A stretch of DNA of 64,000 nt from positions 8,561,001-8,625,000 of the forward strand of contig OY756957.1 of assembly GCA_963580455.1 (NCBI GenBank), written 5' to 3'. This document shows positions 3,891 through 59,598 of this stretch, piece after piece. The DNA is from Euonymus europaeus. Its lineage: Eukaryota > Streptophyta > Magnoliopsida > Celastrales > Celastraceae. The notes under the pieces are model-generated. The model did not search any database and had not been told where the DNA came from. It saw only the letters and a program-made list of their open reading frames with translations. Both the position numbers and the translations under genes were made by a program. Position 1 is the stretch's first letter. Each line of letters starts with the position of its first letter.

Positions 3891-5028
3891 CTATGCTCTG
3901 CAACGCTTGAGGAACAACTTTACCTCAAAAATAAAGGTTTTTTTGAAATTTTTGGAATGCTAACTCTTAAAAATGACACGAGAGTTCTAAAAAAAAGCAA
4001 CCTAACATGCCCTTAAAATATTTGGGAAAAAAAATCTTAAAAATACCAAGTCATTGCCTTGGCCATGGAAACAAATTATAAATTCCATCGCTCAATGATG
4101 TCTTAAATTATCAAGAGGGAAAAATTCATAACCTTCGACCACACATTTTTATATTGAAAAAAGAGAGTCAAAAGAGTTGGTTTAATTTAAACCCAACCAA
4201 TTCTAAATGAGAAAATCTCAAATCTACACCACCACCTTTTTCCGGGCCCCTTTTTGGTGCCTAATTTCAGCTTTGTCAACCATCTGCTCTAATTGGGATC
4301 CAGAAGGGTTTTTTTTTTTTTGGGTTCTACAGTGAGAGATGAGTATGGAGGCGCTTTTTTTTTTTTTTTTTTTTTTGATAGTTTCTCTAGTATGCGTTTG
4401 TTGTCAGACCCCTTCTCCCCCCGACATCCTTAATCTATCAAAAGCATTCTCATCTAGTAACATTCTTTTCTTAATTTTTCACTTTGAGCTGCAAATTTGG
4501 TATAACATTTTTGCGTGAAGTGACCCTCTGTGTTATGTTCTTCTATTAGTAATTGGATGGTCATTGTAATTGGGGAAATTACAATTACCTTGAGAGAGAA
4601 TGTTTCCAATTCCTTTAGCATTATCTAAAGCAATAGCTATTAATTTCTTCAAGGGAATCAACCTATGCCCAAGCTTTTGTCGGTATGATCTCAAGGAACG
4701 CGTGCGCATCAACTAAATTTTCAACTGTAAAGTCTCAGCTGAATTGAGATTAATAAGAAACTATAAATATGATTAGCAGTATGGTTAATGGGCCATGCTT
4801 CTGACCACATCATCGAACCCAAGAGCCAAACCCTTGACCTCTCTCGACTCAAAATCCCTGATTGCTCCTCCCTTGACCTCTCTCAAGATGGTACCTTTAC
4901 TGCTGAATAATCCAATCAGTAGACAAGTTCTAATACTTCCATCACCTGCTATTTGCTTACAAATTGGATTTCATCTTTCAAAGATACTTGAGTCGAAGCT
5001 TCTTTTCTTTGGGATTTGATAGTTGTGA
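3891..5028. other. Intergenic stretch without a recognisable gene
   Basis: I see no convincing gene here. There are two long T runs, about 4309-4321 and 4354-4377. A short plus-strand open frame at 4795-5019 (74 codons, Ser/Pro/Leu-rich) resembles no family I know and is probably chance. Confidence 0.5.
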
Positions 5029-7900
5029 TCAGCTAGTTTGGAAGGAAGTTACTGAAGTTTGAAACTCTTCCATGTAAGGTAAAGCATTTTTGCCAAGAAC
5101 GCCAAAGTTCTGCTCATGAATTAGCAAGATTGAAGATTCAAGACGGTCAATCATTGCTTGGAACAAGGGTGTGACAGAGTCACACGCAACCCCATAAATT
5201 GAACCCAGCAAGGGTGAGTGGGTGACAACACATCTGCAGCAAAACTGGGAGGCTCAGTAATCATATTCATAGATGATATGCGTGTGTGGATCTCTTGCAT
5301 ATGCTGACACAATATGAAGTTCTTGACTTGGGCTGGGGTAGCGGGAGCTGTTATTTGGCATGCTTCCGGGCCTGTAGAAATCTGTCATCAAAATCTAGTT
5401 AGTAACAAATCGCATAACATCAACAGAATAAGAAAATAATTGAAAAAATATGACAAGAAGGATGACATAATCAACTGGATCCATATATAGTTATGCTTTA
5501 CCTGTACACTTATGGCAAGATTTTTTTTTTATTTAGAAAAAAGGACAGACAAAACAATAGCAAGAGTAACTGATAGTCTTCACTAGGCAATATATGAGAA
5601 AAGGGAAGAAGCATGTAGGTGAGACAAGTGGAGGGTCTGGATGAGTCCAGGTGTCATCATTTTGTATTACTTGTTTGTCTGTTTGTGAGTCTGTTATAGC
5701 AGGGTAGTGGCAGTGGTATTGGGGTATCTTTTGGGTGGAGAGTATTCTGTGGAGGTTCCTAGTTCCTCAAAAACTAGGGTTGCTTGTTCATTTCCACTGC
5801 TCGTTTTTCCTTGATAAATAATACAGACAAACCTGTTCCTCTATTTCTGCTGTGTTGTTACTTATCAGTACCAAGATGACAAGCTTACAGAGCACATCAA
5901 ATCAGTTACGGCAAAAAAAACCCAAAAAGGAAAGATTCATCAAGGAATGAATCAATGCATTACACGATATCCTTTAGTTTCACGCATCACATAAGAGATG
6001 ACTACTTAGATACAAACTAGCAGCATCCTACTCCTTAAGAAAGTGATAGAGTTTCCCTCGAATCAATTCAATGAATTAATGAGAACATAAAACATTGTTC
6101 ATGTGCCATATAGTAACTGACTCCTCGAATAAAGATGAGGAATTACAAGAAGGATGAAGATGAATCACAAGAAGGCAGCAGCAATGCATTTTTTATTTTA
6201 TTTTTTGCAAGTAAAAGGAAACTTACCTGGTACTCAGCTCGTTGTGAAAGCAAAAGGAAAATCTTGCCAATTTCACGCAGCACAAGAACAGTCAAATGCA
6301 CATCCAACTGAACTGCTTCAATCTCTTCCTGAATGCGTGATATAATTTTGGATATTTGTTCTTTGGAAGGCACACTTCCGCGACTTGACATTGGAAAGAT
6401 AGAATTCACAAGATCTGACAAACGACTTAAACATAGAGCCAAGAAAGCCATCTGGAATATGTCAATAGCTGCAACCATCTGACTCTTTCCTTCTGAACTA
6501 ATAGCAGGTAAAACCCCTTTCACATCTGTGTCAAGTGAAATTCTTTCAAGCAGATTTTCTATCATCGAAAAGAGCTTTGGATACCCCGTGGTAAATATTT
6601 CTTTGACAAAACTTGATGCTGTGAAAGCGGACTTCATTTGGCCAGCAAAAGCTTTTACAATCGCTTCCCAGACTCTATCCGTTAACATGAAATCGCCCTC
6701 TTAACCAAGTAATAGTTAACTTAGCGGAACAGAGAACAATGTAGGAAAATGACAAGAAAACGAAATTAGGAATATGGATCCTAATGTAGTACTCCCATGA
6801 TTATACACTGGAAAGGACATTTTCATGGCCGATTTTAGCCAATAAAAACAGAATTGCAACTAAAGCATGAAGAAGCTATTATGTTTATGAAAAATAACTA
6901 CTCATCCTGCTGCCACTCAATTTCTAGCTATTTATTCAAATACATTCATTACTCAACTCTCAAACACAAGGTGTTACTCTTACCTGCAATCAATGAAATC
7001 TCATTCTTGTTTTTGAATATTTTTATATTTCCAATGCCAACATTTTTCTATGCAGATTCAATTGCATTCTCTCTCTATTACATCCTTTCATTTGATAAAT
7101 TTATGATTGGCAACTGTTGTACAGGATTGTTCTTTCGTTCTTTCTTTTTTCCTTCTCCAACTGCAGAAGGTATCAACATTTCACCCTAAAAAGACCAAAG
7201 GATTCATCCACGTTAACCCATAGCTTTGCCCGTGTTAGAACATTATGTTTACTTAAACATCACTGAAAACAGTGCAATGCATCGCAGATAAAGAAATTCT
7301 GTTCATAAGAAAAAGGATGATCATTACACTCCATAGAATATTCATCATGGTTGAAATACCAAGACCCATAAAAATATATTAGGCTAAATTCTTCAAAGCT
7401 TCTAGTTTCCTGAATTCCCATGTCAAAATTTTAATTTCCTAGATTTTTTTCCCTATGAAGTCTCAGCAACCAAAACATGTAAAAGCAAGCAATAGAGGGA
7501 GTAAGATATCACAAACCAAGTAACTTGTACCTTAATAGCCTCGTCAAGCAGCAACAACATGCGTAAATGGGTCCCTCTTCTTGGACAAGACTCTCTGCAA
7601 GTGCCACACAGCGACAACAATTGAATGTAGCCGGTCCGTACAACTTCCCATCCTCTGCCACAGTGCCTCCCTGGCCTTCACCCCACCACCAATCTGCGGC
7701 GTCCCACTGCCTCTCACACCTCCTGGCCCATATCCGCTGCCTCCGCCCGTAATTGCCTTCATATCCAATGCAGCCCCATACTCTTTGCAGCCATTTCCTT
7801 GTACTTTTTCACCAATATCTCCACAGTGCCTTTCAACTCTCCGATATTGTATAACACCTGCAACCCAGACCCCACCTCCGCCTAATTCAACCCCTCCATA
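5029..7900 (-). pseudogene. COG5: COG5 (conserved oligomeric Golgi complex subunit 5) pseudogene, 3' truncated
   Basis: COG5 is part of the lobe B half of the COG tether, which acts in retrograde vesicle traffic at the Golgi. Three exon-like blocks resemble plant COG5 in order on the minus strand. Exon A (~7900-7531) has QVLYNIGELKGTVEILVKKY, GTPQIGGG.KAREALWQRM and VVAVWHLQRVLSKKRDPFTH and ends at a GT donor. Exon B (~6698-6227) has MLTDRVWEAIVKAFAGQMKS, SSFVKEIF and MIENLLERISLDTDVKGVLP, with a GTAAG donor. Exon C (5381-5029) has ISTGPEACQITAPAT and GSIYGVACDSVTPLFQAM. Frame breaks occur in exon A (~7775 and ~7563) and exon C (~5215), and a stop follows SFQTS with no downstream exons. The breaks and missing ends indicate a decayed partial copy; a working copy presumably lies elsewhere. 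Confidence 0.87.
5571..5867 (+). mobile_element. Solo LTR (297 bp) in the COG5 pseudogene intron
   Basis: The segment starts TGATAGTCTT and ends GTTACTTATCA, so it has TG...CA ends with inverted TGATA/TATCA termini. It is flanked by GTAAC (5566-5570) and GTACC (5868-5872), a 5-bp target-site duplication with one mismatch. Near its 3' end is TTGATAAATAATAC, a polyadenylation-like context, which supports plus orientation. Its length and termini resemble the 298-bp LTRs of the chromovirus at 52965-59598, although the sequences are otherwise different. Confidence 0.72.
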
Positions 7901-8039
7901 CCTATGTGGCTATCTGCCCTTGGGATTCATCAAATAAAATTATTTACAAAAAAATCAATGAATGACTCTTATCCATAAAATTCTTCTGTTTACTTAAAGA
8001 AAACAATAAGCAAATTAAGTGAATTTGATACAAATTGAC

Positions 8040-10299
8040 TTTTCCCAAATCATATTAGCCTCCAATTGCAGGCAATTACAATTACAATCACCCAAACGTA
8101 CATAACTAACCTCTCGATGATTATGCCACATATCTTAGTTATAAATAAAAAGAAAATAACATTCAAGTTCAGTAGTCTTTTTTCTATAGATGATGCTTCA
8201 ACTAGTGGATCTTCTTTCTTTGATTCTTTCTTTCATAGAAACAATAAGAGAGCACCTGTCTGTCTATGTCACAAAAACCAGCAATCATCGTGCCAGTCAA
8301 GCTAGGCAAATGCATGGCACAAATGTCTGGCACGAGAAACCTTCATTGACTTAAAATGCTTTGTAACCTATCTTTTAGGAGTGACATTTTTAGAAAGAGA
8401 CAAATGTCTTGCGGAGAAATAAACTATAATTGAGGGAGAAGACTTGGACTTTATCCCTTCGAAGTCTCAAATTGATTTTTCCCAAATCATATTAGCCTCA
8501 AATTGCAGGCAATTACGATTACAACCACGCAAACGTACATAACTAACCTTTGGATGATTATGCAACATATCTTAATTATCAGGAAAAATAAAAGGAAAAT
8601 AACATGCAAGTTCAGTAGCCTTCTTTCTATATATGATGCTTCAACTAGTGGATCTTCTTTCTTTATTTCTTTCTTTTACAGACACAAAAAGAGAGCATGT
8701 GTCTATCTATGTCACAAAAACCATTGTGCCCGTCAAGCAAGATAAATGCACGACACAAATGTTTGGCACGAGAAACTTTCATTGACTTAAAATGCTTTGT
8801 AACCTCTCTTTCAGGAGTGACATTTTTAGAAAGACAAATGTCTTGCGGAGAAATAAACTATAATTGAGGGATCGAGAAGACTTAGACTTTATCCCTACAA
8901 AGTCTCAAATTGATTTTTCCCTAATCATATTAGCCTCAAATTGCGGGCAATTACGATTACAACCACGCAAACGTACATAACTAACCTCTGGATGATTATG
9001 CCACATATCTTAATTATCAAGAAAAATAAAAGGAAAATAGCATGCAAGTTTAGTAGTCTTCTTTCTATATATGATGCTTCAACTAGTGGATCTTCTTTCT
9101 TTGTTTCTTTCTTTCATAGAAACAAAAAGAGAGCACCTGTCTGTTATGTCACAAAAACCAGCAATCATCGTGCCCATCAAGCTAGGCAAATGCATATCAC
9201 AAATGTCCGGCACGAGAAATCTTCATTGACTTCAAATGCTTTGTAACCTCTCTTTCATGTGTGACATTTTTAAAAAGAGACAAATGTCTTTTGGAGAAAT
9301 AAACTATAATTGAGGGAGAAAACTTGGACTTTATCCCTTCAAATTCTCAAATTGATTTTTCCCAAATCATATAAGCCTCAAATTGGAGGTAATTACGATT
9401 ACAACCTCGCAAAGGTACATAATTAACCTCTGGATGATTATGCCACATATCTTCATTATCAGGAAAAATAAAAAGAAAATAACTGCAAGTTCAGTAGTCT
9501 TCTTTCTATATATGATGTTTCAACTAGTTGATCTTCTTTCTTTGTTTCTTTCTTTCATAGAAACAAAAGGAGAGCATCTGTCTATCTATGTCACAAAAAC
9601 CAGCAATCATCGTGCCCGTCAAGCTAGGCAAATGCATGACACAAATGTCCGACACGAGAAACCTTCATTGACTTAAAATGCTTTGTAACCTATCTTTTAG
9701 GAGTGACATTTTTAGAAAGAGACAAATGTCTTGCAGAGCAATAAACTATAATTGAGGGAGAAGACTTGGACTTTATCCCTTCGAAGTCTCAAATTGATTT
9801 TTCCCAAATCATATTAGCCTCAAATTGCAGGCAATTACGATTACAACCACACAAACGTACATAACTAACCTCTGGATGATTGTGCAACATATCTTAATTA
9901 TTAGAAAAAATAAAAGGAAAATAACATGCAAGTTGAGTAGCCTTCTTTCTATATATGATGCTTCAACTAGTGGATCTTCTTTCTTTATTTCTTTCTTTTA
10001 CAGACACAAAAAGAGAGCATGTGTCTATCTATGTCACAAAAACAAGCAATCATCGTGCCCGTCAAGCAAGATAAATGCATGACACAAATGTTCGGCACGA
10101 GAAACTTTCATTGACTTAAAATGCTTTGTAACCTCTCTTTCAGGAGTGACATTTTTAGAAAGAGACAAATGTCTTGCAGAGAAATAAACTATAATTGAGG
10201 GAGAAGACTTAGACTTTATCCCTTCAAAGTCTCAAATTGATTTTTCCCTAATCATATTAGCCTCAAATTGCGGGCAATTACGATTACAACCACGCAAAC
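8040..10299 (+). repeat. Tandem array of ~440-bp units, left block (units 1-5 and start of 6)
   Basis: A ~440-bp unit repeats head to tail. The phase marker TTG in AAATTGCAGGCAATTAC falls at 8066, 8503, 8941, 9383, 9825 and 10268, giving spacings of 437-443 bp. Each unit contains the CTTTCTATATATGATG region, the CTTCAACTAGTGGATC region and the GACATTTTTAGAAAGA tail. Diagnostic variants recur every third unit: units 2 and 5 share ACAGACACAAAAAGAGAG and CAAGCAAGATAAATGC, while units 4 and 7 share TTGGAGGTAATTACG and AGTTGATC. This indicates a later duplication of a three-unit block. Confidence 0.93.
8346..8351 (+). promoter_or_regulatory. W-box-type TTGACT repeated once per tandem unit
   Basis: TTGACT, the core recognised by WRKY transcription factors, sits in the conserved CTTTCATTGACTT / CTTCATTGACTT context of all eight units: 8346, 8782, 9226, 9668, 10111, 12662, 13105 and 13548 (6 bp each). 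Conservation of the site may simply reflect shared ancestry of the units; a role in receptor expression is inference. Confidence 0.4.
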
Positions 10300-12403
10300 T
10301 GTAACATCCCGAATCTTCAAATAGCGTACAAAATAGAGTACGAGTGACATATGACAATTATAGGTGTTAAATAGGATCATAATAATTCAGAGTGTTTTAA
10401 GATGTTTGGAATTAAATAGAATCAAACTATTTTTTTATTAAATTCTATACGATAAATAAAAATTATGTGCATAAAGATCGTCGGGGACGGAGTTAGGATG
10501 AAATTGATGTGAATTTTAGGAGTTAAGAGATAGAGAAGTTAATGGCAAAATTATAAATTAAATAGGACTATTTGGTAAATAACGTGGAAGGGTAGGGACA
10601 CAATAGTAAAAGGCTAATAATATAATTTTTATATATAAATATATGGATACCAGCACAGAAATCGAGAAAACCTAAATAAATAAATAAAAAGAAAAAAAAA
10701 TTACGAAAGAGAAGGAGGAGGCGGCGGACGAAAATCGAAATCCCTGCTCCGACGATGAATCGGGAAACGGGTAGCATGAGAAGGACGGGAATGACGAGAC
10801 GAAACCATTGATATCAATTTTGGAAAGAACGGAGCCGGTTTGAGCTCTCAACGACGACGTGGAAGATCTCGGGGCCGACGACTTTGAAGCGCACGTCCGG
10901 CAACCTCTCAGGTAAACAAAACCAGCACTAAACTCACCGTTCCTCCCTCTGTAGATTAAGGCAGTTCGTGACCTCCACCGCACCACCATAGGCGACGACC
11001 CGTTAACAAAACCCGGAGGGTCTGTCAGATTCCCTCGTGCGAAGAAGAAGAAGAGCGACCGGGTCTGCCTGACCCGGTTGTGATTATTTAGATTGATTAA
11101 TTTTAATTGTATTAATTAATGTTAATGGTATAGATAAAATGAATTGATTAAAAATAAGAATACTAATAAGTGATTATGGATATTATATGGGTATTAGGAA
11201 CCTATCACTTAAGTTTTTTTAAATTAATTAACGAGAAATAATAAGAATAAACGTTAATGACTTTAGGTATTATTATGGATTTCAGGGACAAATTTCGATA
11301 GTCAAAAATATCAGGAACTTACGGGAACACGTTAAAGTAAGTAATACTCACCTGTGTCACGGAATTACATGCTGAATGATTGTTAATTTTACAATTTCTG
11401 TATTTGTATGTGTATTATATTTATAAGGTATGTATATATATATATATATGTTAGTATGATTAATTTGTGGTAATGAGATTGATATTGTTATAATAATAAT
11501 TGTATCGACTCTGTTGATTATAGACATCAACTTAATTGCGGTGATTTTGGTACTGGTTGATTGTGAACTGTCATGTGATGAAATGTATATATATATTAAT
11601 ATGAGGCTGAACTGACGATGATGAGTTATTTGTGAATGGTGAACTGTTATGTGATGTTATTTAGATATGACAATTAATGGTTGTATTGCATGAAACATAA
11701 CATATCATGGCATACATGACACATGCATTTAAGAAAAATGAAAGGAAATTGGTACCGGAAATGAAAATGGAAATGTATTATGACTGAAAAGTGTTCTTTG
11801 GTAGAATACTTAATATAAGGAAAATCCCGACCGGTTGCTCTGTAGCAGTGTATCTAGGTTAAGGGCCCGAGTACTGAAAAAAATAATTTAAATGGCTGAT
11901 TGTCTTCTAATGATGATGTTCATGTGCATTCATGCATAAGTATTACTTGCTGAGCCTCGGCTCACTATGTTCCGTGATGCAGGTATTGAATTCTTAGATG
12001 ATTATGCTGAGCTAGGAGTTGATGGTGTCGCCGTAGATCCATGAAGAAGATGCTCATGTGACAGGAGTTAATTTTCACAGAAGATTAATCAATTAAGTTT
12101 TTCATTTATTTATGCACTTATAATTAACAGCTTTGATGTGTAGTAATAAATGTAGACGCGGAAAAACCCGGATGAGAAGTATAGGATTTACGGTAGTATT
12201 CTTAGAGGATATTAATTGAAGGTTACTGCTTATTTAAAATATATAAGATGACGCATTAAATTCAGGTTATGTCAGTATTAACTTGGTGGAATTATTTCTT
12301 ACAGTGGATCTGTTTAAATATAATGGTGAGTTTATACTGAAAAATAAGTAGCGTTCTGGACTACAAGCCCGGTAATTAGGGTTTCGTGGGACGGGGCGTT
12401 ACA
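10300..12403 (+). mobile_element. Solo LTR (2104 bp) of a large gypsy element, Tekay-like, inside tandem unit 6
   Basis: The insertion begins TGTAACATCCCG and ends CGGGGCGTTACA, giving TG...CA ends with an imperfect inverted repeat. It is flanked by a perfect 5-bp target-site duplication, CAAAC (10295-10299 and 12404-12408). Removing it restores a normal 440-bp unit. It has no coding domains. The internal TTGCTGAGCCTCGGCTCACT stretch followed by a GCAGGT site near the 3' end is of a kind I know from long LTRs of Tekay/Del chromoviruses, so a solo LTR left by LTR-LTR recombination is the best reading. Confidence 0.85.
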
Positions 12404-13670
12404 CAAACGTACATAACTAACCTCTGGATGATTATGCCACATATCTTAATCATCAAGAACAATAAATGGTAAATAACATGCAAGTTTAGTAGTCTTCTTT
12501 CTATATATGATGCTTCAACTAGTGGATCTTCTTTCTTTGTTTCTTTCTTTCATAGAAACAAAAAGAGAGCACCTGTCTGTTATGTCACAAAAACCAACAA
12601 TCATCGTGCCCATCAAGCTAGGCAAATGCATATCACAAATGTCCGGCACGAGAAATCTTCATTGACTTCAAATGCTTTGTAACCTCTCTTTCATGAGTGA
12701 CATTTTTAAAAAGAGACAAATGTCTTGTGGAGAAATAAACTATAATTAAGGGAGAAGACTTGGACTTTATCCCTTCAAATTCTCAAATTGATTTTTCCCA
12801 AATCATATTAGCCTCAAATTGGAGGTAATTACGATTACAACCTCACAAACGTACATAACTAACCTCTGGATGATTATGCCACATATCTTCATTATCAGGA
12901 AAAATAAAAAGAAAATAACATGCAAGTTCAGTAGTCTTCTTTCTATATATGATGTTTCAACTAGTTGATCTTCTTTCTTTGTTTCTTTCTTTCATAGAAA
13001 CAAAAGGAGAGCATCTGTTTGTCTATGTCACAAAAACCAGCAATCATCGTGCCCGTCAAGCTAGGCAAATGCATGGCACAAATGTCCGCCATGAGAAACC
13101 TTCATTGACTTAAAATGCTTTGTAACCTATCTTTTAGGAGTGACATTTTTAGAAAGAGACAAATTTCTTGCTGAGAAATATACTATAATTGAGGGAGAAG
13201 ACTTGGACTTTATCCCTTCGAAGTCTCAAATTGATTTTTCCCAAATCATATTAGCCTCAAATTGCAAGCAATTACGATTGCAACCACGCAAACGTACATA
13301 ACTAACTTCTGGATGATTATGCCACATATCTTAATTATTAAAACAAATAAAAGGAAAATAATATGCAAGTTCAGTAGTCTTCTTTCTATATATGATGCTT
13401 CAACTAGTGGATCTTTTTTCTTTGTTTCTTTCGTTTACAAAAATAAAAAGAGAGAACTTGTCTGTCTATGTCATAAAAACCAACCGTCATCGTGCCCGTC
13501 AAGCTAGGCAAATGCATGGCATAAATGTCGGGCATGAGAAACCTTCATTGACTTGAAAATTGCAACCTCTGAATGACATTTTTAGAAATAGACAAATATC
13601 TTGTGGAGAAATAAACTATAATTGAGGGAGAAGACTTGGACTTTATCACTTCAAAGTCTTCATTTCACCA
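12404..13670 (+). repeat. Tandem array of ~440-bp units, right block (rest of unit 6, units 7 and 8)
   Basis: This is the same family as the left block. Unit 6 resumes exactly after the inserted LTR, unit 7 has its phase marker at 12819 and unit 8 at 13262. Unit 6 matches unit 3 (GTCTGTTATGTCAC, GCATATCACAAATG) and unit 7 matches unit 4, which completes the three-unit period. Unit 8 is more divergent and decays near 13670, about 60 bp upstream of the TATA box of the receptor gene, so the array is in direct promoter contact with that gene. Confidence 0.92.
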
Positions 13671-13730
13671 AAGACTTGCACTTTATCACGGTTACATGCT
13701 TAAGACGATACATAATTTGTTTAATGTGTT

Positions 13731-13738
13731 TATAAAAG
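13731..13738 (+). promoter_or_regulatory. TATA box of the receptor-like protein gene
   Basis: TATAAAAG lies 41-48 bases upstream of the ATG at 13779, in a good position for a short-leader plant gene. Nothing else TATA-like of this quality is nearer the start. The AACC immediately before ATGGCT gives a favourable plant initiation context. Confidence 0.7.
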
Positions 13739-13778
13739 GCTACTCAAATCACTTTTCTTCTTCAACTCATAAAAAACC

Positions 13779-26448: not shown

Positions 26449-27191
26449 TGTTGGGCCAATTTTTCCAACAATCAATGTCAACGGTCGACCGTGTTGCAAG
26501 ATGACGTCGAGATCCTGTTTAGAAAGAAAAATGGTCGCATGAACTAGTTCAACTGGGGACACCGGTACGGTGCCTGCCAAAGAAACTCGGGCGTGAGAAT
26601 TAGTATGGAGTTTGTAGAAAAAATTGTAAGATAATTGACATGTGGACGATATATGTGATGATGTAAGAGAGTAGTTTTTAGAGAGTGAAGTAGGTGGAAC
26701 AGAAAAAAGGATCCCCTTAATGTGCATTTTTGGGGTATTTATAGACAATTGCAAGTTATGTGAAAATACTAAATTACCCTAACTTAAGCCGCCTTATATT
26801 AAAAGTCGTACCGTCATATTCGTCGTACAGGAATAAAAGAATTGATTAACTAAACCAATTATTACATTGATAAATTACGGTCGTATCGATTTATTTGTAC
26901 CACTTACCACGGTATCAATAAAATGATTTATAATGTTAATTGTTAACTGTTGCACTATTAAAGTTGGTGACAGTCGTACCAATTATTACAGCATGAATGT
27001 ATGCTAAAGTTAAACTAAAATAAATTTACTTGGACCACTCGTTAATGTTGAGCCGATTATGTCGTACCGATACCTTGTAGCCTGCGCCTGTAAACTACTA
27101 CATAATTTGTTAAAAACATCTAATGGGCCATGGCCCAATAGATGACGTAAACATAACTCGAAAGGTAACATCACAATTTTTAACCATAACA
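26449..27191 (-). repeat. 3' LTR of the Tat-like element
   Basis: 743 bp, running on the minus strand from TGTTATGGTT to CCCAACA. It is the direct repeat of 32032-32773 with about 3 percent differences. An open frame in it on the minus strand (26754-26440) is shared with the other LTR and is not evidence of a gene. Confidence 0.92.
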
Positions 27192-32031: not shown

Positions 32032-32773
32032 TGTTGGGGCAATTTTTCCAACAATCAATATCAACGGTTGACCGTGTTGCAAGATGATGTCGAGATCCTG
32101 TTTAGAAAGAAAAATGGTCGCATGAACTAGTTCAACTGGGGACACCAGTATGATGTCTGCCAAAGAAACTCGGGCGTGAGAATTAGTATGGAGTTTGTAG
32201 AAAAAATTGTAAGATAAATGACATGTGGACGATATATGTGATGATGTAAGAGAGTAGTTTTTAGAGAGTGAAGTAGGTGGAACAGAAAAAAGGATCCCCT
32301 TAATGTGCATTTTTGGGGTATTTATAAACAATTGCAAGTTATGTGAAAATACTAAAGTACCCTAACTTAGGCCGCCTTATATTAAAAGTCGTACCGTCAT
32401 ATTCGTCGTACGGGAAGAAAAGAATTGATTAACTAAACCAATTATTACATTGATAAATTACGGTCGTATCGATTTATTTGTACCACTTACCACGGTATCA
32501 ATAAAATGATTTAAAATGTTAATTGTTAACTGTTGCACTATTAAAGTTGGTGAAAGTCGTACCAATTATTACAGCATGAATGTATGCTAATGTTAAACCA
32601 AAATAAATTTACTTGGACCACTCGTTAATGTTGAGCCGATTATGTCGTACCGATACCTTGTAGCCTGGGCCTGTAAACTACTACATAATTTGTTAAAAAC
32701 ATCTAATAGGCCATGACCCAATAGATGACATAAACATACTCGAAAGGTAACATCACAATTTTTAACCATAACA
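32032..32773 (-). repeat. 5' LTR of the Tat-like element
   Basis: 742 bp, minus-strand TGTTATGGTT ... CCCCAACA, the partner of 26449-27191. The primer site lies directly inside it. Confidence 0.92.
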
Positions 32774-51064: not shown

Positions 51065-52964
51065 TTGGACTTTGCTAGTCCCGACCAGAGGTAGAATAAA
51101 CCATAATGAACAACAATTAAAAATTAACATCTAATTCACTTTTGCATGAATTGCGGTTATATTCAGCTTATGCAACAAGCCTTTAAACTATAAGGTGTTT
51201 CTAGTGGATGAGTTTTGTCTTGCGAGGGTTTACTAGAACGATACCCACAAACATTCAAAATATTGCATCATCATTCCATATCACAACAAGAATAATATGA
51301 ATTCACTCAAACTGTATGCATGTACACTAACAAATTCAATCACACGAACTCCACAACCACCAAAATAGCAAGTCTAATCAAGTCTCATGTCATTTCTCCA
51401 TTAATTAGTTTATCAAGTAGTGTAGTGCTTAACGAAAACAAATGAATATTTTACTTTCAAATGATCATGACACAAATATGACAATAACCCTAGAATTCTA
51501 AGAATTAACAAATAAAAAATATCCTTGTAGTTTATTCTGATGTTATGAATGTAAAATGACTCAAATGTTCTACCCTTTTTAACTTTTGTTGTGATCCATG
51601 TAGCGAGTTTTCAAGTCGACAATCCTAAGTCAGTTAACCCAAGGTTTCGGGCATAGAGACAGCCAAAAGGATCTACTTACTGGAATTGTAAAGGCTCAAA
51701 ACTGAAACACCATAGATACATGTTAGGGAAATAATAATAATATGCAAAAGTCATCCGAAGATTAGTGCTCAAAGCCTTGAACATTGGTAAAGTAACGTGT
51801 TCTAGCCACCCCCACACTTTAAATATAGTAGTGTCCTGTATGTGCAAACAAGAGGAAATAAACAAAATAGTAGACGAAAGGAGCAACATAAGCTGGGTAC
51901 ATGAAATCATGCATCGATTATGCGAAGAGCCAGACGAGCTATCTCCTCATGGGACTCTCGTAGCCCAGTCTCGAAAAGAACATGTAATTTGGTCTGAAGA
52001 TGGTTTATATGCTCTTGAAGCTATTGTTTTCTCTCCACCAACTATTGTACACGAGTAAGTAGTGCACTCCTATGATTGAAGGGTCTAGAAGAAGTGGAAA
52101 CTTCATTGTTGGAAACCATAAGAGATGCGCTTAAATTCCATGAAGTGAAATTGAATAGTTGTAGTGGATAATCAGGATCTGCAAGAGGGAGCGTGATCTT
52201 CTTAGACAAAAGAAAACTTGTGATAAGGCGAGGAAATAAAATTCATCCAAATGTTGACTTCTTCCGCTTGAAGGTTTTGACAATTGCAATCTAGTCTCTA
52301 AGCATATAAGAGAGGAAGATCTCACCCACGTCAAACCAATTACCAGAGAAATAAAATATAGCACTTCTCAGAAGAGTCCTCTTCGCTTCTGCTTGTGGGC
52401 TGGAGGATAGTGATTTAGTTGGATTGGAGAATCGTTTATCCACATACACTTTGGAAGTTGTGATTGACGAACAACAGGTTCACTATCCTCCCTATATATA
52501 TTCATGAAATCTATCATCTATATGGCTCTTTTCTTGACATATTTTACAAAATCATTGTTTGTGGTGTAGGAGGAAAGAAACCCCACCCAACTACAAATAT
52601 TAGAGGATGTGAATTCCACAACAACGTTGGATACACAAATTTGAAAAATTGCATGACTCTTATCATTTTTATCTTTCAGAATCTTCTTCATTGTGTGATA
52701 GAATTGATGAACAACACTAGGATAGACTTCAAACTCAATGTGAGGATCTAGATCTACCAAGAAGATAAGAGAGTGATCACTAAATATGTTCTTACCAAGT
52801 TGTTGTCAAGAAGCAGTCAAATCTCCTCTTGGATAGTATTCTCGAGAATGATCTCATTGATGTCAAAACTCAAAAGATTCACTTGGCATAGCGGTAGTAC
52901 AAGTGATGAAACAGCAGCGGAACGGGCACTTTTAGGTGGCATGTTTCTTGGGCGCGAGTGATAT
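51065..52964 (-). other. 3' untranslated region of the Athila-like element, distal part
   Basis: Between integrase and the 3' LTR, Athila-like elements carry a long region that in some members encodes an env-like protein. I see no continuous env-like frame here. Short open frames at 52364-52131 and 52760-52518 are unassigned. The proximal part is 59599-60010, beyond the nested chromovirus. Confidence 0.45.
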
Positions 52965-53262
52965 TGATAAACTCAGATTTCAACAAGATCAAGAATCAAG
53001 AAGATCAAGAAGTAGAGAGAGAAGAAGTTACAGAAAGGAAGATAGAAAGAGAATTAGAATTGTATTTCATTCCAAAAAAGATATCAGCATCGTAGCATTC
53101 AGTCATTATATGCAGGAGAGTATGAGACCATTTGTAACTACTAACCTATAACCAATAAGATGAGGCCACGTTATTAGTTAGTTACAACTTTTAATGCTAC
53201 TAATGATTATTAATGAAACGGTGCGTTTAGAAACAAACACCAACTTAGCCCAACTCTTATCA
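52965..53262 (-). repeat. 3' LTR of the young chromovirus
   Basis: 298 bp, TGATAAACTC ... CTCTTATCA in plus-strand orientation. It differs from the 5' LTR at two positions (T/G in CAACTTTTAATG near 53189 and C/A in ACACCAACT near 53240). The purine-rich AATGAGGAAGTGT (minus strand, 53275-53263) adjoins it as polypurine tract. Confidence 0.95.
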
Positions 53263-53309
53263 ACACTTCCTCATTGGAAATTAACCTTGTCCTCAAGGTC
53301 TTGATTTCC

Positions 53310-55652
53310 TTAAAACTTGAAGCTTGGATACTTAGCTACGAATTCATCATAATCTTCCCATGTAGCTTCATCTCTACTGTGGTCATTCCACTGTATAAGC
53401 AACTGGGTACCTGCAACATTATTCTTCTTATAAATTCTTCTCTGCAACACTTCCTGAGGATCTATATGAAACATTCCTGATTCTGTGACAGTAGGAAGTG
53501 ATACAGCAGGTATAATGGCAGGACCTAAATGCTTCTTCAAATAACTAACATGGAACACAGGGTGTACTTTACTTTCAACAGGCAGCTTCAACTTATAAGC
53601 TACTTTTCCAACTCTGTCAATCACCTCATAAGGTCCAAAATATTTTGGATGCAATTTGTGATGTGCATGGATTGCCAGAGATGGCAGTTGATATGGCATA
53701 AGTTTGAGATAAACTAAATTCCCCACCTCAAACTCTCTCTCAGTTCTATGCTGATTAGCAGCTTTGATCATCCTCTCCTGAGCCAGTTGGAGGTTTTGTT
53801 TAAGTAATGACAATATCTGATCTCTGGCCAACAACTCCTGCTCCAAGATATCCAACTTACAAGTTCCACTTTCATAGGCTAAAATGTGTGGAGGTGGATA
53901 TCCATATACTATCTCAAAAGGTGTCATTTTAGCTGAAGTATGATAGGCTGTATTATAACACCATTCAGCCCAAGCTAACCATTTCACCCACTGTTTTGGT
54001 TGGAGCCCAGTGAAACATCTCAAGTAGGTCTCCAAACATCTGTTTACAACTTCCGTTTGGCCATCACTCTGAGGGTGATAACCAGAACTCATGCACAACT
54101 TTGATCCCTGCATATTGAAAAACTCTTTCCAAAACTGACTGAGAAACACAGAGTCACGATCACTCACAATGGTTGAGGGCATGCCATGTAATTTGAAGAC
54201 ATTATCCACAAATAGTTGTGCAACTATTTGAGCTGTATAAGGATGAGCCAAAGCTATAAAATGTGCATATTTCGACAATCTGTCCACTACTACCATAACC
54301 ACAGTTTTTCCCTTACAAGGTGGCAGCCCAACTATAAAATCCATACTAATATCATGCCAAACCTGTGTAGGTATAGGAAGTGGTTGAATCAATCCTGGAG
54401 CAGCCAATGTTTCATATTTATTCTGCTGGCAAATTTGGCACTCAGCTACCCACTTTCTGATGTCCTTCTTCATTCCTGTCCAAAAGAAATTTTTCTTCAA
54501 TCTTTGATAAGTTTCCAAAACTCCTTGGTGTCCTGAAGTTGGAGTGCCATGGTATTCATGAAAGAGTTTCTCCCTCCAAATAGAAGTAGGACTCAAAGCA
54601 ATTCTAGTCTTGTACTTCAAGAATCCATTATCAATATGATACTTGGAACCTGCTGCTACAGTAACATCTGTTGGATCAGATTGATGTCTTTGTAAAGCTT
54701 GTAAAATTTCTGCAATGTGTTCCAGTATCCACTTATCTTTTTCATTATATCTTCTTAATTCATCTAACCACCCAAAATAAGGGTAGGTAATGGCCAACAT
54801 TTCTGATTGAAATCCAGTGGACTGTTCTGGTAATTGGTCTGCACTTGGCAACCTTGACAAAGCATCTGCAGCCAAATTATAAGATCCCTGCTTGTACTGA
54901 ATCTCATAATCATAACCCAAAAGTTTTGCAGCCCATTTCTGTTGAAAAGGTGTATTTGCTCTTTGGTTTAGGAAATATTTGAGACTATGATGATCAGTCT
55001 TGATTATAAAGTGTCTACCATGCAAATAATTCTGCCATTTTTTGATAGCATGAACAATAGCAATGAGTTCCCTCTCATAAGTAGATAAAGCTTGATTTCT
55101 AGGACCTAAGGCCTGACTTGAAAATGCAATAGGCTTACCTTCCTGTTGTAGTACTGCCCCTATACCACACCCTGATGCATCACACTCAATTTCAAATACT
55201 TTGTTAAAGTTAGGCAAGGCCAGTACCTGTGGAGATGTCATAACATCTTTGAGAGCCTGGAAAGCTTCAGTAGAAGCTTGAGTCCAACAAAAACTATCCT
55301 TCTTAGTCAGTTGGTACAAGGGTTGGCAAATTTTTTCATAATTCCCCACAAATTTCCTATAATACCCTGTGAGTCCCAAGAAACCCCTTAACTCCTTGAC
55401 ATTGACTGGAATTGGCCATTCCAGTATAGCTTTCAGTTTAGTTGGATCAGCAGCTACACCTGTCCTGGATACTATATGACCTAGGTACTCAACCTGATCT
55501 TGGCCAAAAGCACATTTCTGTTGCTTCACTAACAACTGATTTTTCTGTAGTAATTCAAATGCCAATTGAAGATGATGTAAATGCAATTCCCAGGTGGTAC
55601 TGTAGATGAGGATATCATCAAAGAAAACCAGGATGAACTTTCTGAGATAAGG
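53310..55652 (-). CDS. Pol C-terminal part of the young chromovirus: RT end, RNase H, integrase, chromodomain
   Basis: One uninterrupted frame of about 780 codons. RT palm: [12 protein letters not shown] with the catalytic FFDD at 55626-55615. RT connection: QVEYLGHIVSRTGVAADPTK, LRGFLGLTGYYRKFV. RNase H: FEIECDASGCGIGAVLQQEG, LSTYERELIAIVHAIKKW, IIKTDHHSLKYFLNQ (catalytic Asp, Glu, Asp). Integrase: HEYHGTPTSGHQG ... CQICQQNK zinc module, MDFIVGLP, IVSDRDSVFLSQFW and QTDGQTEVVNRCLE-type DDE (written here QSDGQTEVVNRCLE). C-terminal GPYEVIDRVGKVAYKLKLP module, then chromodomain (EVLQRRIYKKN, TQLLIQWNDHSRDEATWEDY). All catalytic residues are present; only the upstream solo LTR and stop block a full polyprotein. 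Confidence 0.93.
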   Translation of the reverse strand, partial: PYLRKFILVFFDDILIYSTTWELHLHHLQLAFELLQKNQLLVKQQKCAFGQDQVEYLGHIVSRTGVAADPTKLKAILEWPIPVNVKELRGFLGLTGYYRKFVGNYEKICQPLYQLTKKDSFCWTQASTEAFQALKDVMTSPQVLALPNFNKVFEIECDASGCGIGAVLQQEGKPIAFSSQALGPRNQALSTYERELIAIVHAIKKWQNYLHGRHFIIKTDHHSLKYFLNQRANTPFQQKWAAKLLGYDYEIQYKQGSYNLAADALSRLPSADQLPEQSTGFQSEMLAITYPYFGWLDELRRYNEKDKWILEHIAEILQALQRHQSDPTDVTVAAGSKYHIDNGFLKYKTRIALSPTSIWREKLFHEYHGTPTSGHQGVLETYQRLKKNFFWTGMKKDIRKWVAECQICQQNKYETLAAPGLIQPLPIPTQVWHDISMDFIVGLPPCKGKTVVMVVVDRLSKYAHFIALAHPYTAQIVAQLFVDNVFKLHGMPSTIVSDRDSVFLSQFWKEFFNMQGSKLCMSSGYHPQSDGQTEVVNRCLETYLRCFTGLQPKQWVKWLAWAEWCYNTAYHTSAKMTPFEIVYGYPPPHILAYESGTCKLDILEQELLARDQILSLLKQNLQLAQERMIKAANQHRTEREFEVGNLVYLKLMPYQLPSLAIHAHHKLHPKYFGPYEVIDRVGKVAYKLKLPVESKVHPVFHVSYLKKHLGPAIIPAVSLPTVTESGMFHIDPQEVLQRRIYKKNNVAGTQLLIQWNDHSRDEATWEDYDEFVAKYPSFKF

Positions 55653-56991
55653 TGATAAGTGCCAGAATATACATTCTAAAATTGATTACATATAGGCATT
55701 TATAAATGATTAAGGTTTAAAGTGATGTATTTGTGCATTAAACTCCAAATATTATTTTGGGCATCACTTTATTATTTTAAATAAAATTTTGCTTCCTTGT
55801 CAATTAACCTAAGCAATTGTGAAATTCTTGATCTATAAGTAAAAATATGTCATTCATGATATCATCATCATTTTTCCAAAATAAATATCATGATATTTAT
55901 ATGTGTGATATTTATTTGTATAATATTTATATGTGTGATATTTTTTATTTTATTATTTTTGTATTTAAAATATCATGATATTTACATAATATTTTGTCTA
56001 TAAAAGGAAATGAGGTCTTTGATGATGGAGGATTGCAAGATTTCAAGATTCCAAAATTCCAAGATTTGAAGAATTGAAGAAACAAAGCAAGAAGAAGAAA
56101 TCTTTTGGAGGAAGAACAAAGAAGGAGAAAAAGGGTTGTATTCCTTAGCTTGTATTTCTTATGTTTTATATTTTGCTTGATTATGTATAATTAAACTTTT
56201 GTAGTTAGGGCTTAACTTTGAAGCCCTAAACATGATTTCAATTATATAAGTTGTGTGGTGTGGATTGCAAATTTTCTTACAAGAATGATGATTTTGATTT
56301 TTCCATGTTATTTGAATTCTAATATTTTTGTTTCTTTGATTAGCTAACTTTGAAACATGTATTAGAGTTAATTGTTGTAGAGCAAGATCAATTACCTTGT
56401 TGAATATGTTCTTATTTGCAACATATAATTCGGTTAAACGAATTATGAAAAATCAATTCCTGAATATCTAAGTACAAACACCATGTATTAGGATTCTTGT
56501 AACATTCATATTCTCTTTACTCCTATTGGGTTTTTAATTGTTAATTGATGCAAACATCATGCTAGATTTCAATTAAGAATACACGTACTGAGGTAAACAC
56601 CATGCACTGTACATGCACCTAAGAGAGAATCATACAACTTGAGTTTGACCATGACCTTGTTGTGAATGTTGTCATCATATACTTGTTGAAAATTTCAATC
56701 TACCATTTCTTATAAATTGTTTGATTGTTTTGTGGTGGATAGTGAGTCCTCGCAAGGATTTTTAGAAATTGAAACTCTTCACTTAATATTCTTATTTTTA
56801 ATACTAATGTGTTTGTTTTATTCTATGTTATAAGATTTAAACCCCCCCTTTACTATTATGTGTAAATTATATTCAAGTGTTAGGTTGTATATTTATTAGT
56901 ATCACTCCTTGTGGGATCGACTTTTACTTGTCAATAATATATTATTTGTACAGTTATAAGATTATATTAAATTGTTGCTAACGACATAACA
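55653..56991 (+). mobile_element. Solo LTR (1339 bp) inside the RT of the young chromovirus
   Basis: Starts TGATAAGTGCCAG and ends GACATAACA (TG...CA). Flanks TAAGG (55648-55652) and TGAGG (56992-56996) form a 5-bp duplication with one transition. Removing it rejoins the RT sequence between FRP and LRKF. Near its end, CCTTGTGGGATCGACTTTTACTTG resembles the context just before the primer site in Athila/Tat-type LTRs, supporting plus orientation. There is no coding content. Confidence 0.82.
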
Positions 56992-56996
56992 TGAGG

Positions 56997-57734
56997 CCTA
57001 AAAATGTCATTCATTAAGTTTTGAAATGTAGCTGGTGCATTTGTTAGGCCAAATGGCATTACAAGGAACTCATAGTGTCCATCATGAGTCCTAAATGCTG
57101 TTTTTTCAATGTCTTTTGTAGCCATTCTGATTTGATGATAACCAGATCTCAAATCTAACTTAGAAAAATACTGTGCACCATGCAACTCATCCAGCAAATC
57201 ATCTATCAAAGGGATCGGGTACTTATCCTTAATAGTTAATTGATTTAGTTCTCTGTAATCCATGCACATACGCCAAGTCCCTTCTTTTTTCTTGACTAAT
57301 AATATTGGAGAAGAAAAAGGGTTGTGGCTGGGTCTAATAAATCCTGACTGAAGCAGTTCATGAACAGCCTTTTCAATTTCAGTTTTCTGAACAGGTCCAT
57401 AATGGTATGGCCTAATGCTAGGTGGCTTTGCTCCTTCAACCAAAGGAATGGTATGGTCTTGTGACCTCTGGGGTGGCAAAGTCACTGGCAGTTTGAAGAT
57501 TGCCTCAAATTGAGACAATAACCCTTCTATGTCCTCCTTCTGAGAAACAGTAAGCTTGTTACTATTATATTGACTTTCAATTAATTCTGTTGCACACAAG
57601 AAACACCCCCAATTTGCTGTAGGTAGGTTCCTTATGATCTGCTGTACAAAAGCTGATTGAATCAAAGGAATTCCCATCATATTTCCTACTAACTTTACTT
57701 GCACAGAATTAGCTACAAATTCCATTGTTAAAGT
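56997..57734 (-). pseudogene. Reverse transcriptase N-terminal part of the young chromovirus
   Basis: Continues the gag-protease frame after the single stop. [97 protein letters not shown] and [20 protein letters not shown] are all intact RT motifs. It is interrupted at NDIFRP by the solo LTR at 56991. Confidence 0.92.
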
Positions 57735-59267
57735 CTAAAAATTCCATAGGATTGGACTTACAGATGATAGCCACTGCACCCCTAGAACTATATCACATCC
57801 TCCCAAAGGTAAGGTGAAGAAATCTGCATTACCAGTGTAATTGCCCATGCTTAACTGACAATTCTTGAAAATACCCTTACTCTTTACTCTTCCTCCATCA
57901 GCAATCATCACCTCAAATTCACTAGTAGGTTGGATCTGCCATGCATGTTTTTTTATCAACTTTAAATCAATAAAGTTGTGAGTACTCCCAGAATCCATAA
58001 GAACTGTGACTGGACAATCCTGAATGAAGCCATTAACCTTCATAGTTTTAACTATCCTTTTGGCTACAGTACCATAATAGGCACATGTACTCAACTCCAT
58101 ATGTTTCAATTCACCTTCTTGCAGCTGAGATTCTAAAGTTGTGGAATCCTCAGCAATCCCAGTCTCCTCTAATAAACTCAATTCTTCATCAGTCATATCA
58201 ACATCTAAAAGAAGCAACTGCTTCTTAGCACATTGATGGTCTCTGGTATATCTCTCATCACAATAAAAACAAAGGCCTTTAAGTTTCTTTTGTTGCACTT
58301 CTTCAGGAGTAATTCTCTTAAATGGCACTTCTTGAGACCTATCCCTTCCCACAACCTTGTTTCTTGAATTCTGGAACCTATTGGAATTTTGTGATACAAA
58401 ATTCACATCTCGTGACTTGCTAAAATTAGGATTTGGTGATGGAATTCCGTAAGGAATCTTTAGTCCAGATGTTGGATTCCTGGTTTCAGTCATCTTTGAA
58501 TCAATTTGTTGTGCCAAAGCTATTGCATCATGTACTGTATCCGGTTTCAGAATCTTAACATCAAAACGCAGTTCCTTCTTCAGTCCACCAATAAAACAAC
58601 TCCTTAAAAGAGTTGGTGCTATTTCAGTTCTAATAGCTAATTTCCTAAAAGTAGCAACGTAATCTCTCAAGGTACCTGTTTGACAAAGTTTGAACAGGGA
58701 CTCTGCTGTGTCATCAAATTCAGTAGGTCCAAATTCCCTACAAAAAGCTCTTGTAAACTGCTCCCATCTTGGTGTTGTGACCAAGCAATTCATCCATCTA
58801 AACCATTGGAGGGCATCTGAATCCAGATTGAATGAAACCATCTTTACTTTCTGGTGTTCAGGAGTGCTATGATACTGAAAATATTGTTCAGTTTTGTAGA
58901 TCCATGCAAGAGGATCATCACCTTCTCTAAATTGAGGAAATTCTACCTTCTGCCAGGGTCGATTACCACCTATTCCTTCATTTCTTCGGAAACCCGAATT
59001 TTCCCCCAAGTCATACCTATCCCCCACTTCAGTCAAAGCAGGTTCTTTGTTAATAGCACTCTTCGTTGTATTTTCCATCGAGGTGATTTTCTCCATAATA
59101 GCAGCAAATTTCAAGTCTAACTTGGAATCCAATTTTTCCTCCAGTCTATCTTCCCAAGTTTCAGCGAAAGAAGCCAGAGACTCCACAGTTAAAGCTAGCT
59201 TTCCCACAGAAGATTCCAACAGAGTGGTGCGATTCTCCATTGTTGATCGAGTACAGATTCTTGGCAT
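57735..59267 (-). CDS. Gag and protease of the young chromovirus
   Basis: An open frame of 510 codons. N-terminal coiled coil (about residues 15-65, LASFAETWEDRLEEKLDSKL); gag core (about 105-260: PWQKVEFPQFREGDDPLAWI, DALQWFRWM, CREFGP, LFKLCQTGTLRDYVATFRKL); zinc knuckle relic CFYCDERYTRDHQC (about 338-351, CX2CX6HX2C spacing rather than the common CX2CX4HX4C); retropepsin active site VLMDSGSTHNFID (about 425-437); protease C-terminal block CDIVLGVQWLSSVSPI. A TAG stop follows WNF where related elements have a Gln codon, so gag-protease is separated from RT in this copy. Function: particle formation and polyprotein cleavage. Confidence 0.93.
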   Translation of the reverse strand: MPRICTRSTMENRTTLLESSVGKLALTVESLASFAETWEDRLEEKLDSKLDLKFAAIMEKITSMENTTKSAINKEPALTEVGDRYDLGENSGFRRNEGIGGNRPWQKVEFPQFREGDDPLAWIYKTEQYFQYHSTPEHQKVKMVSFNLDSDALQWFRWMNCLVTTPRWEQFTRAFCREFGPTEFDDTAESLFKLCQTGTLRDYVATFRKLAIRTEIAPTLLRSCFIGGLKKELRFDVKILKPDTVHDAIALAQQIDSKMTETRNPTSGLKIPYGIPSPNPNFSKSRDVNFVSQNSNRFQNSRNKVVGRDRSQEVPFKRITPEEVQQKKLKGLCFYCDERYTRDHQCAKKQLLLLDVDMTDEELSLLEETGIAEDSTTLESQLQEGELKHMELSTCAYYGTVAKRIVKTMKVNGFIQDCPVTVLMDSGSTHNFIDLKLIKKHAWQIQPTSEFEVMIADGGRVKSKGIFKNCQLSMGNYTGNADFFTLPLGGCDIVLGVQWLSSVSPILWNF

Positions 59268-59287
59268 TCACAGGAAGAAATGTACTG

Positions 59288-59300
59288 GCTTCGATACCAT
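59288..59300 (-). other. Primer binding site of the young chromovirus, Met-tRNA type
   Basis: TGGTATCGAAGCC on the minus strand, immediately inside the 5' LTR. It is the same 13-base site as in the plus-strand chromovirus at 38086. Confidence 0.85.
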
Positions 59301-59598
59301 TGATAAACTCAGATTTCAACAAGATCAAGAATCAAGAAGATCAAGAAGTAGAGAGAGAAGAAGTTACAGAAAGGAAGATAGAAAGAGAATTAGAATTGTA
59401 TTTCATTCCAAAAAAGATATCAGCATCGTAGCATTCAGTCATTATATGCAGGAGAGTATGAGACCATTTGTAACTACTAACCTATAACCAATAAGATGAG
59501 GCCACGTTATTAGTTAGTTACAACTGTTAATGCTACTAATGATTATTAATGAAACGGTGCGTTTAGAAACAAACACAAACTTAGCCCAACTCTTATCA
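59301..59598 (-). repeat. 5' LTR of the young chromovirus
   Basis: 298 bp, near-identical partner of 52965-53262. Confidence 0.95.

Follow-up and report, generated by a model that had tools for sequence, protein, structure and literature searches.

Probable in-place amplification, from one unit to eight, of the upstream flank of a receptor-like protein gene in Euonymus europaeus

Amplification of promoter-side flanking sequence is a known general kind of change, and by analogy with the mlo-11 and b1 arrays such amplification can alter a gene. The R6 repeat of apple MYB10 is reportedly a short minisatellite in a pigment regulator, associated with autoregulation, and in this it is unlike the array described here. 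Both are promoter repeats beside a gene (PMC11321683, in excerpt). In barley mlo-11, the repeats include promoter and 5'UTR sequence of Mlo as well as exon sequence, the number of copies is 2 to 11-12, an aberrant read-through transcript is produced, and methylation and expression are altered (PMC4941727, in excerpt). In maize, the b1 tandem repeats are tied to paramutation, siRNAs and enhancer activity, and the penta-repeat of pl1 is situated about 14 kb downstream (PMC3798267 and PMC11166354, both in excerpt). Among the titles listed from the open-licence literature, none refers to a non-coding tandem array ahead of a gene for an LRR receptor-like protein (RLP).

We observed such an array in a 64,000-bp stretch of the E. 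europaeus assembly (hereafter the window), to which all coordinates refer unless a locus name (L022, L043, L045) is given. Eight head-to-tail units in one phase on the plus strand occupy 8031-13659, leaving 119 bp to the ATG of an intact RLP gene and 71 bp to its TATA-like box. The preliminary description had correctly reported eight units directly ahead of an intact RLP; its span (8040-13670), its unit lengths (437-443 bp, against 433-443 bp by our delimitation) and its distance to the TATA box (about 60 bp) are replaced by the values given here, and a 2,104-bp element inserted within the span had gone unmentioned. The locus, on C1, consists of the following features:

4692-7903, minus strand: COG5 remnant with in-frame stops
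7901-8038, unstranded: sequence separating COG5 from the array, collinear with its C6 counterpart (80.6%)
8031-8467, plus strand: U1, first unit, agreeing at its left edge with the single-copy C6 locus
8468-8905, plus strand: U2, partner of U5 (97.5%)
8906-9347, plus strand: U3, partner of U6 (97.7%)
9348-9789, plus strand: U4, partner of U7 (97.1%)
9790-10232, plus strand: U5, partner of U2
10233-10299, plus strand: U6, first part, terminating in target-site copy CAAAC (10295-10299)
10300-12403, unstranded: solo-LTR-like insertion of 2104 bp with TG...CA ends and a 5-bp target duplication (CAAAC), splitting U6
12409-12783, plus strand: U6, remainder, preceded by the second target-site copy CAAAC (12404-12408)
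12784-13226, plus strand: U7, partner of U4
13227-13659, plus strand: U8, adjoining the promoter, the most diverged unit
13660-13778, plus strand: proximal promoter and 5' leader, with TATAAAA at 13731-13737; its first part is also found on C6
13779-16781, plus strand: LRR receptor-like protein (RLP), intact open frame of 1000 aa with no stops

As in mlo-11, an intact immunity-related gene is directly preceded by tandem copies of its own 5' region, and the repeated sequence is natively upstream, a single copy standing in the same place on C6. Unlike the transcribed and exon-containing repeats of mlo-11, the unit is non-coding, stops before the TATA-like box and includes no transcribed or coding part of the RLP (PMC4941727, in excerpt). 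As in b1 and pl1, non-coding tandem repeats whose units measure several hundred bp or more lie near a gene, whereas b1 is linked to paramutation and pl1 is downstream, and the array here is promoter-adjacent (PMC3798267 and PMC11166354, in excerpt).

The RLP has Pfam matches to LRRNT_2 and LRR, with no kinase domain among the Pfam matches, and a membrane stretch recognised by eye; it fits the LRR-RLPs in its LRR ectodomain, N-terminal LRR cap, membrane anchor and absence of a kinase, and the gene likely encodes a disease-sensing receptor. Among the best 120 of 6863 proteins, the closest belong to Tripterygium wilfordii, the first with 86% identity across 77% of the query and the next with 64% and 62%. 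Within the genome, no close second copy was found among the 46 of 650 candidates scored, the next full-length relatives being on C7 (61 and 60%) and C5 (45 and 45%). Additionally, the unit and the proximal promoter were not found (E up to 0.01) in the 1.5 kb ahead of 29 other RLP-like loci, and the unit was therefore rejected as a general RLP-promoter element; the searched 1.5 kb is surely upstream sequence for about four near-full-length paralogs (L042-L045), and none of these four has the unit upstream. Two of them carry smaller upstream repeats unrelated in sequence to the unit, a direct repeat of ~243 bp present twice at L043 177-656 and direct repeats of ~70 bp at L045 423-700, so that small-scale duplications just upstream of RLPs may be frequent in this genome.

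Upon comparing the eight units, we find a marked higher-order structure. Gap-free identity reaches 97.7% for 3/6, 97.5% for 2/5 and 97.1% for 4/7, compared with 88.4-93.6% for the remaining 25 of the 28 pairs, and in a maximum-likelihood tree each of the three pairs obtains a bootstrap of 100 (200 replicates). The period-three tree was again recovered when the single C6 copy, the only outgroup used, was added. Furthermore, this matching is the best among all 40320 label permutations, the 96 that reach it being its own symmetries only, and mean identity between units is 95.0% at lag three versus 89.9-91.8% at other lags. Because the three pairs are far closer than any other, they indicate that a three-unit block was duplicated; the preliminary description had proposed these pairs and a block of about 1.32 kb, and had expected a period-three tree, all of which the data bear out, except that the block probably begins and ends within a unit instead of at unit borders. 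This last point comes from the resemblance of the second half of U1 to those of U4 and U7: U1 and U4 differ at 22 positions in columns before 223 and at 8 after (Fisher p 0.008, with the cut point picked post hoc), and any two of the second halves of U1, U4 and U7 show 8-9 differences. Such near-equality is unexplained by one simple block duplication and calls for an extra step, so that one further exchange, or a conversion, is likely in the history of the array.

The element that splits U6 belongs to a dispersed family with at least 75 genome matches (40 of 1387 candidates scored). Its members have a common 3' end, after which different sequence follows at five distinct places. We call the element solo-LTR-like because neither an internal region nor, in the four family loci checked, a primer-binding-site motif was found, and because its start was not recovered in nine family loci checked. 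U3, the partner of U6, is free of the LTR, which places the insertion after the block duplication. As a consequence of its position, about 2.9 units stand uninterrupted beside the promoter and five units are shifted more than 2 kb further away. The element has a CpG observed/expected ratio of 1.23, far above the rest of the window. Two other elements were observed in the window: a gypsy-type element with a chromodomain at 52963-59598, whose 300-bp flanking repeats are 99.3% identical and which is thus probably a recent insertion, and a pair of direct repeats at 26449-27191 and 32032-32773, which share 96.9% identity, enclose a gag-like frame and are probably LTRs.

Since satellites typically show tandem organisation and higher-order pairing, we considered whether the array might be an ordinary satellite or belong to a transposon. 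When the 443-Mb assembly (30 contigs) was searched with a 441-bp unit query, 13 stretches were obtained, ten of which lie in the array and three on C6, where together they make up one diverged unit copy; one query of this kind is no proof of rarity, yet abundance over many loci, which the preliminary description had allowed for and which a satellite would display, was not seen. The array edges have neither target duplication nor termini and instead match the C6 locus, and Rfam yielded nothing for the unit at E up to 0.1. Owing to the single array, the one C6 copy and the matching edges, a satellite or transposon origin was rejected as exceedingly unlikely. A structured RNA was likewise rejected on the absence of an Rfam match at this threshold, and a coding origin because blastx against the fetched RLP proteins yielded nothing better than E 0.47 among the matches listed. 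As to a viral origin, also set aside, an 18-base exact pattern of the unit occurred in 13 viral-contig stretches with one match each, which is not informative. The array is known from one assembly, in which additional, nearly identical blocks could have been collapsed; because the units differ by 2-12% and one holds a unique LTR insertion, false repetition is unlikely, and we regard an assembly artefact or a wrong copy number as very improbable.

The C6 locus (L022) provides the single-copy state and contains COG5, the unit and RLP remnants, all arranged and oriented as they are on C1. Its COG5 gene (L022 198-4548, minus strand) has both COG5 Pfam domains and keeps the N-terminal exon, the first 239 codons of which were not found in the 104 kb of C1 examined. 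The RLP on C6 is decayed, its remnants reaching 79-82% amino-acid identity where they match best, and TRF detected no such tandem array at the C6 locus; a single-copy unit ahead of a paralogous RLP, as the preliminary description had suggested looking for, is thus present. At the left junction, the flank is common to C1 and C6 through GAATTTGATACAAATTGA, after which the unit follows on both, once a C6 element is set aside. This element (L022 about 4719-5687) is ~970 bp long, has inverted repeats of 349 bp (77.7%), splits the unit at its first bases and is flanked on both sides by AAATTGATT, a 9-bp target duplication read by eye; from the inverted repeats and the target duplication we take it to be MULE-like. 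At the right junction, C6 retains a recognisable beginning of the post-unit promoter, ahead of the RLP deletion. Since both array edges match C6, they correspond to the ancestral borders of one unit, and amplification took place in situ; together with the single C6 unit between COG5 and the RLP, this gives an ancestral order of COG5, one unit and RLP. Comparing the two regions (104 kb by 50 kb), we find only one other match, between RLPs, beyond the COG5/unit/RLP stretch, and with collinearity limited to one stretch we speak of a segmental duplication and not of a whole-genome duplication. On the gene content of the two loci, this is reciprocal loss after duplication, C1 having kept the RLP and lost COG5, and C6 having kept COG5 and lost the RLP.

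Overall, we consider it highly probable that the upstream flank of the RLP was amplified in place after a segment duplication, followed by block duplication and LTR insertion. The ancestor would have carried the unit once, in the intergenic space between divergently placed COG5 and RLP genes, and duplication of the segment would have produced the present C1 and C6 copies. The C1 unit would then have grown in place by single-unit duplications through unequal exchange to about five units, a later duplication of one three-unit block (~1.32 kb) would have brought these to eight, and the LTR element would have inserted into unit 6 as the last step. The depths of divergence fit this order, being 14.5% between C6 and the array consensus, about 6-12% between units and 2.6% within block pairs; the order of the amplification events is thereby supported, and the pattern of the units suggests unequal exchange as the mechanism. 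Substitution rates of 4e-9 to 1.3e-8 per site per year are assumed for dating. Under these rates, rough ages would be ~1-3 Myr for the block duplication and 3.5-11.5 Myr for the single-unit spread.

Next, we considered whether the array acts on the RLP, with binding sites in each unit and unit number setting the strength or inducibility of the gene, in the manner of promoter repeats known to increase expression; we judge this unlikely. The array lies immediately upstream of the intact RLP, every unit contains a W-box-type TTGACY motif (one in seven units, three in U1) as well as a TATA-like motif, and the C6 unit agrees with the array consensus throughout its first 58 aligned bases, which is above expectation (22 of 10000 permutations). 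However, the consensus has one W-box against a shuffle mean of 0.59, with 455 of 1000 shuffles as high, and TGACG (254/1000 shuffles) and TATA-type motifs (133/1000) are also at chance. The longest invariant run in the eight units is 11 columns, whereas the permutation mean is 16.6 and nearly all permutations are longer; the lack of a long invariant run speaks against a constrained core. The LTR, moreover, adds over 2 kb to the distance between the promoter and five of the units. Between U8 and the proximal promoter there is a match of 18 of 19 bases (BLAST E 3e-4), with 23 of 300 shuffles as high in a gapped test, and a sequence link between unit and proximal promoter is only suggestive. We infer that any effect of the array on RLP expression is to be expected as small or conditional. 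That unit number varies between plants by unequal exchange and thereby changes RLP expression or epigenetic silencing appears decidedly unlikely.

Alternatively, the repeats could be targets of RNA-directed DNA methylation and thereby dampen the RLP, as has been reported for mlo-11, although we hold this to be improbable. CpG transitions within the block pairs are raised (7 of 48 CpG versus 13 of 411 other C/G positions, p 0.002; p 0.0014 when the denominator is taken from one partner only), and an LTR is located within the array. Against this, CpG observed/expected in the array (0.50-0.55) is close to the window mean (0.54) and to the RLP coding sequence (0.49), compared with 0.13 in the gypsy interior; an LTR pair of a retroelement, used as comparator, displays a CpG excess of comparable size (6 of about 50); and transitions to transversions are only 20:14. 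The raised CpG transitions are a weak hint, compatible with germ-line CG methylation of the array.

In-place amplification of the RLP's own upstream flank from one copy to eight thus remains a well-supported reading of the locus, with a history that can be read from the units. Immune receptors evolve fast and attention has been mostly on coding copies, whereas the amplification here concerns the non-coding flank only, its steps fall into a datable order, and a single-copy relative serves as control. If unit number does not vary between plants, the locus would be a well-documented instance of local, neutral amplification; if it does, it would offer a natural dosage series for relating promoter-side copy number to receptor expression.
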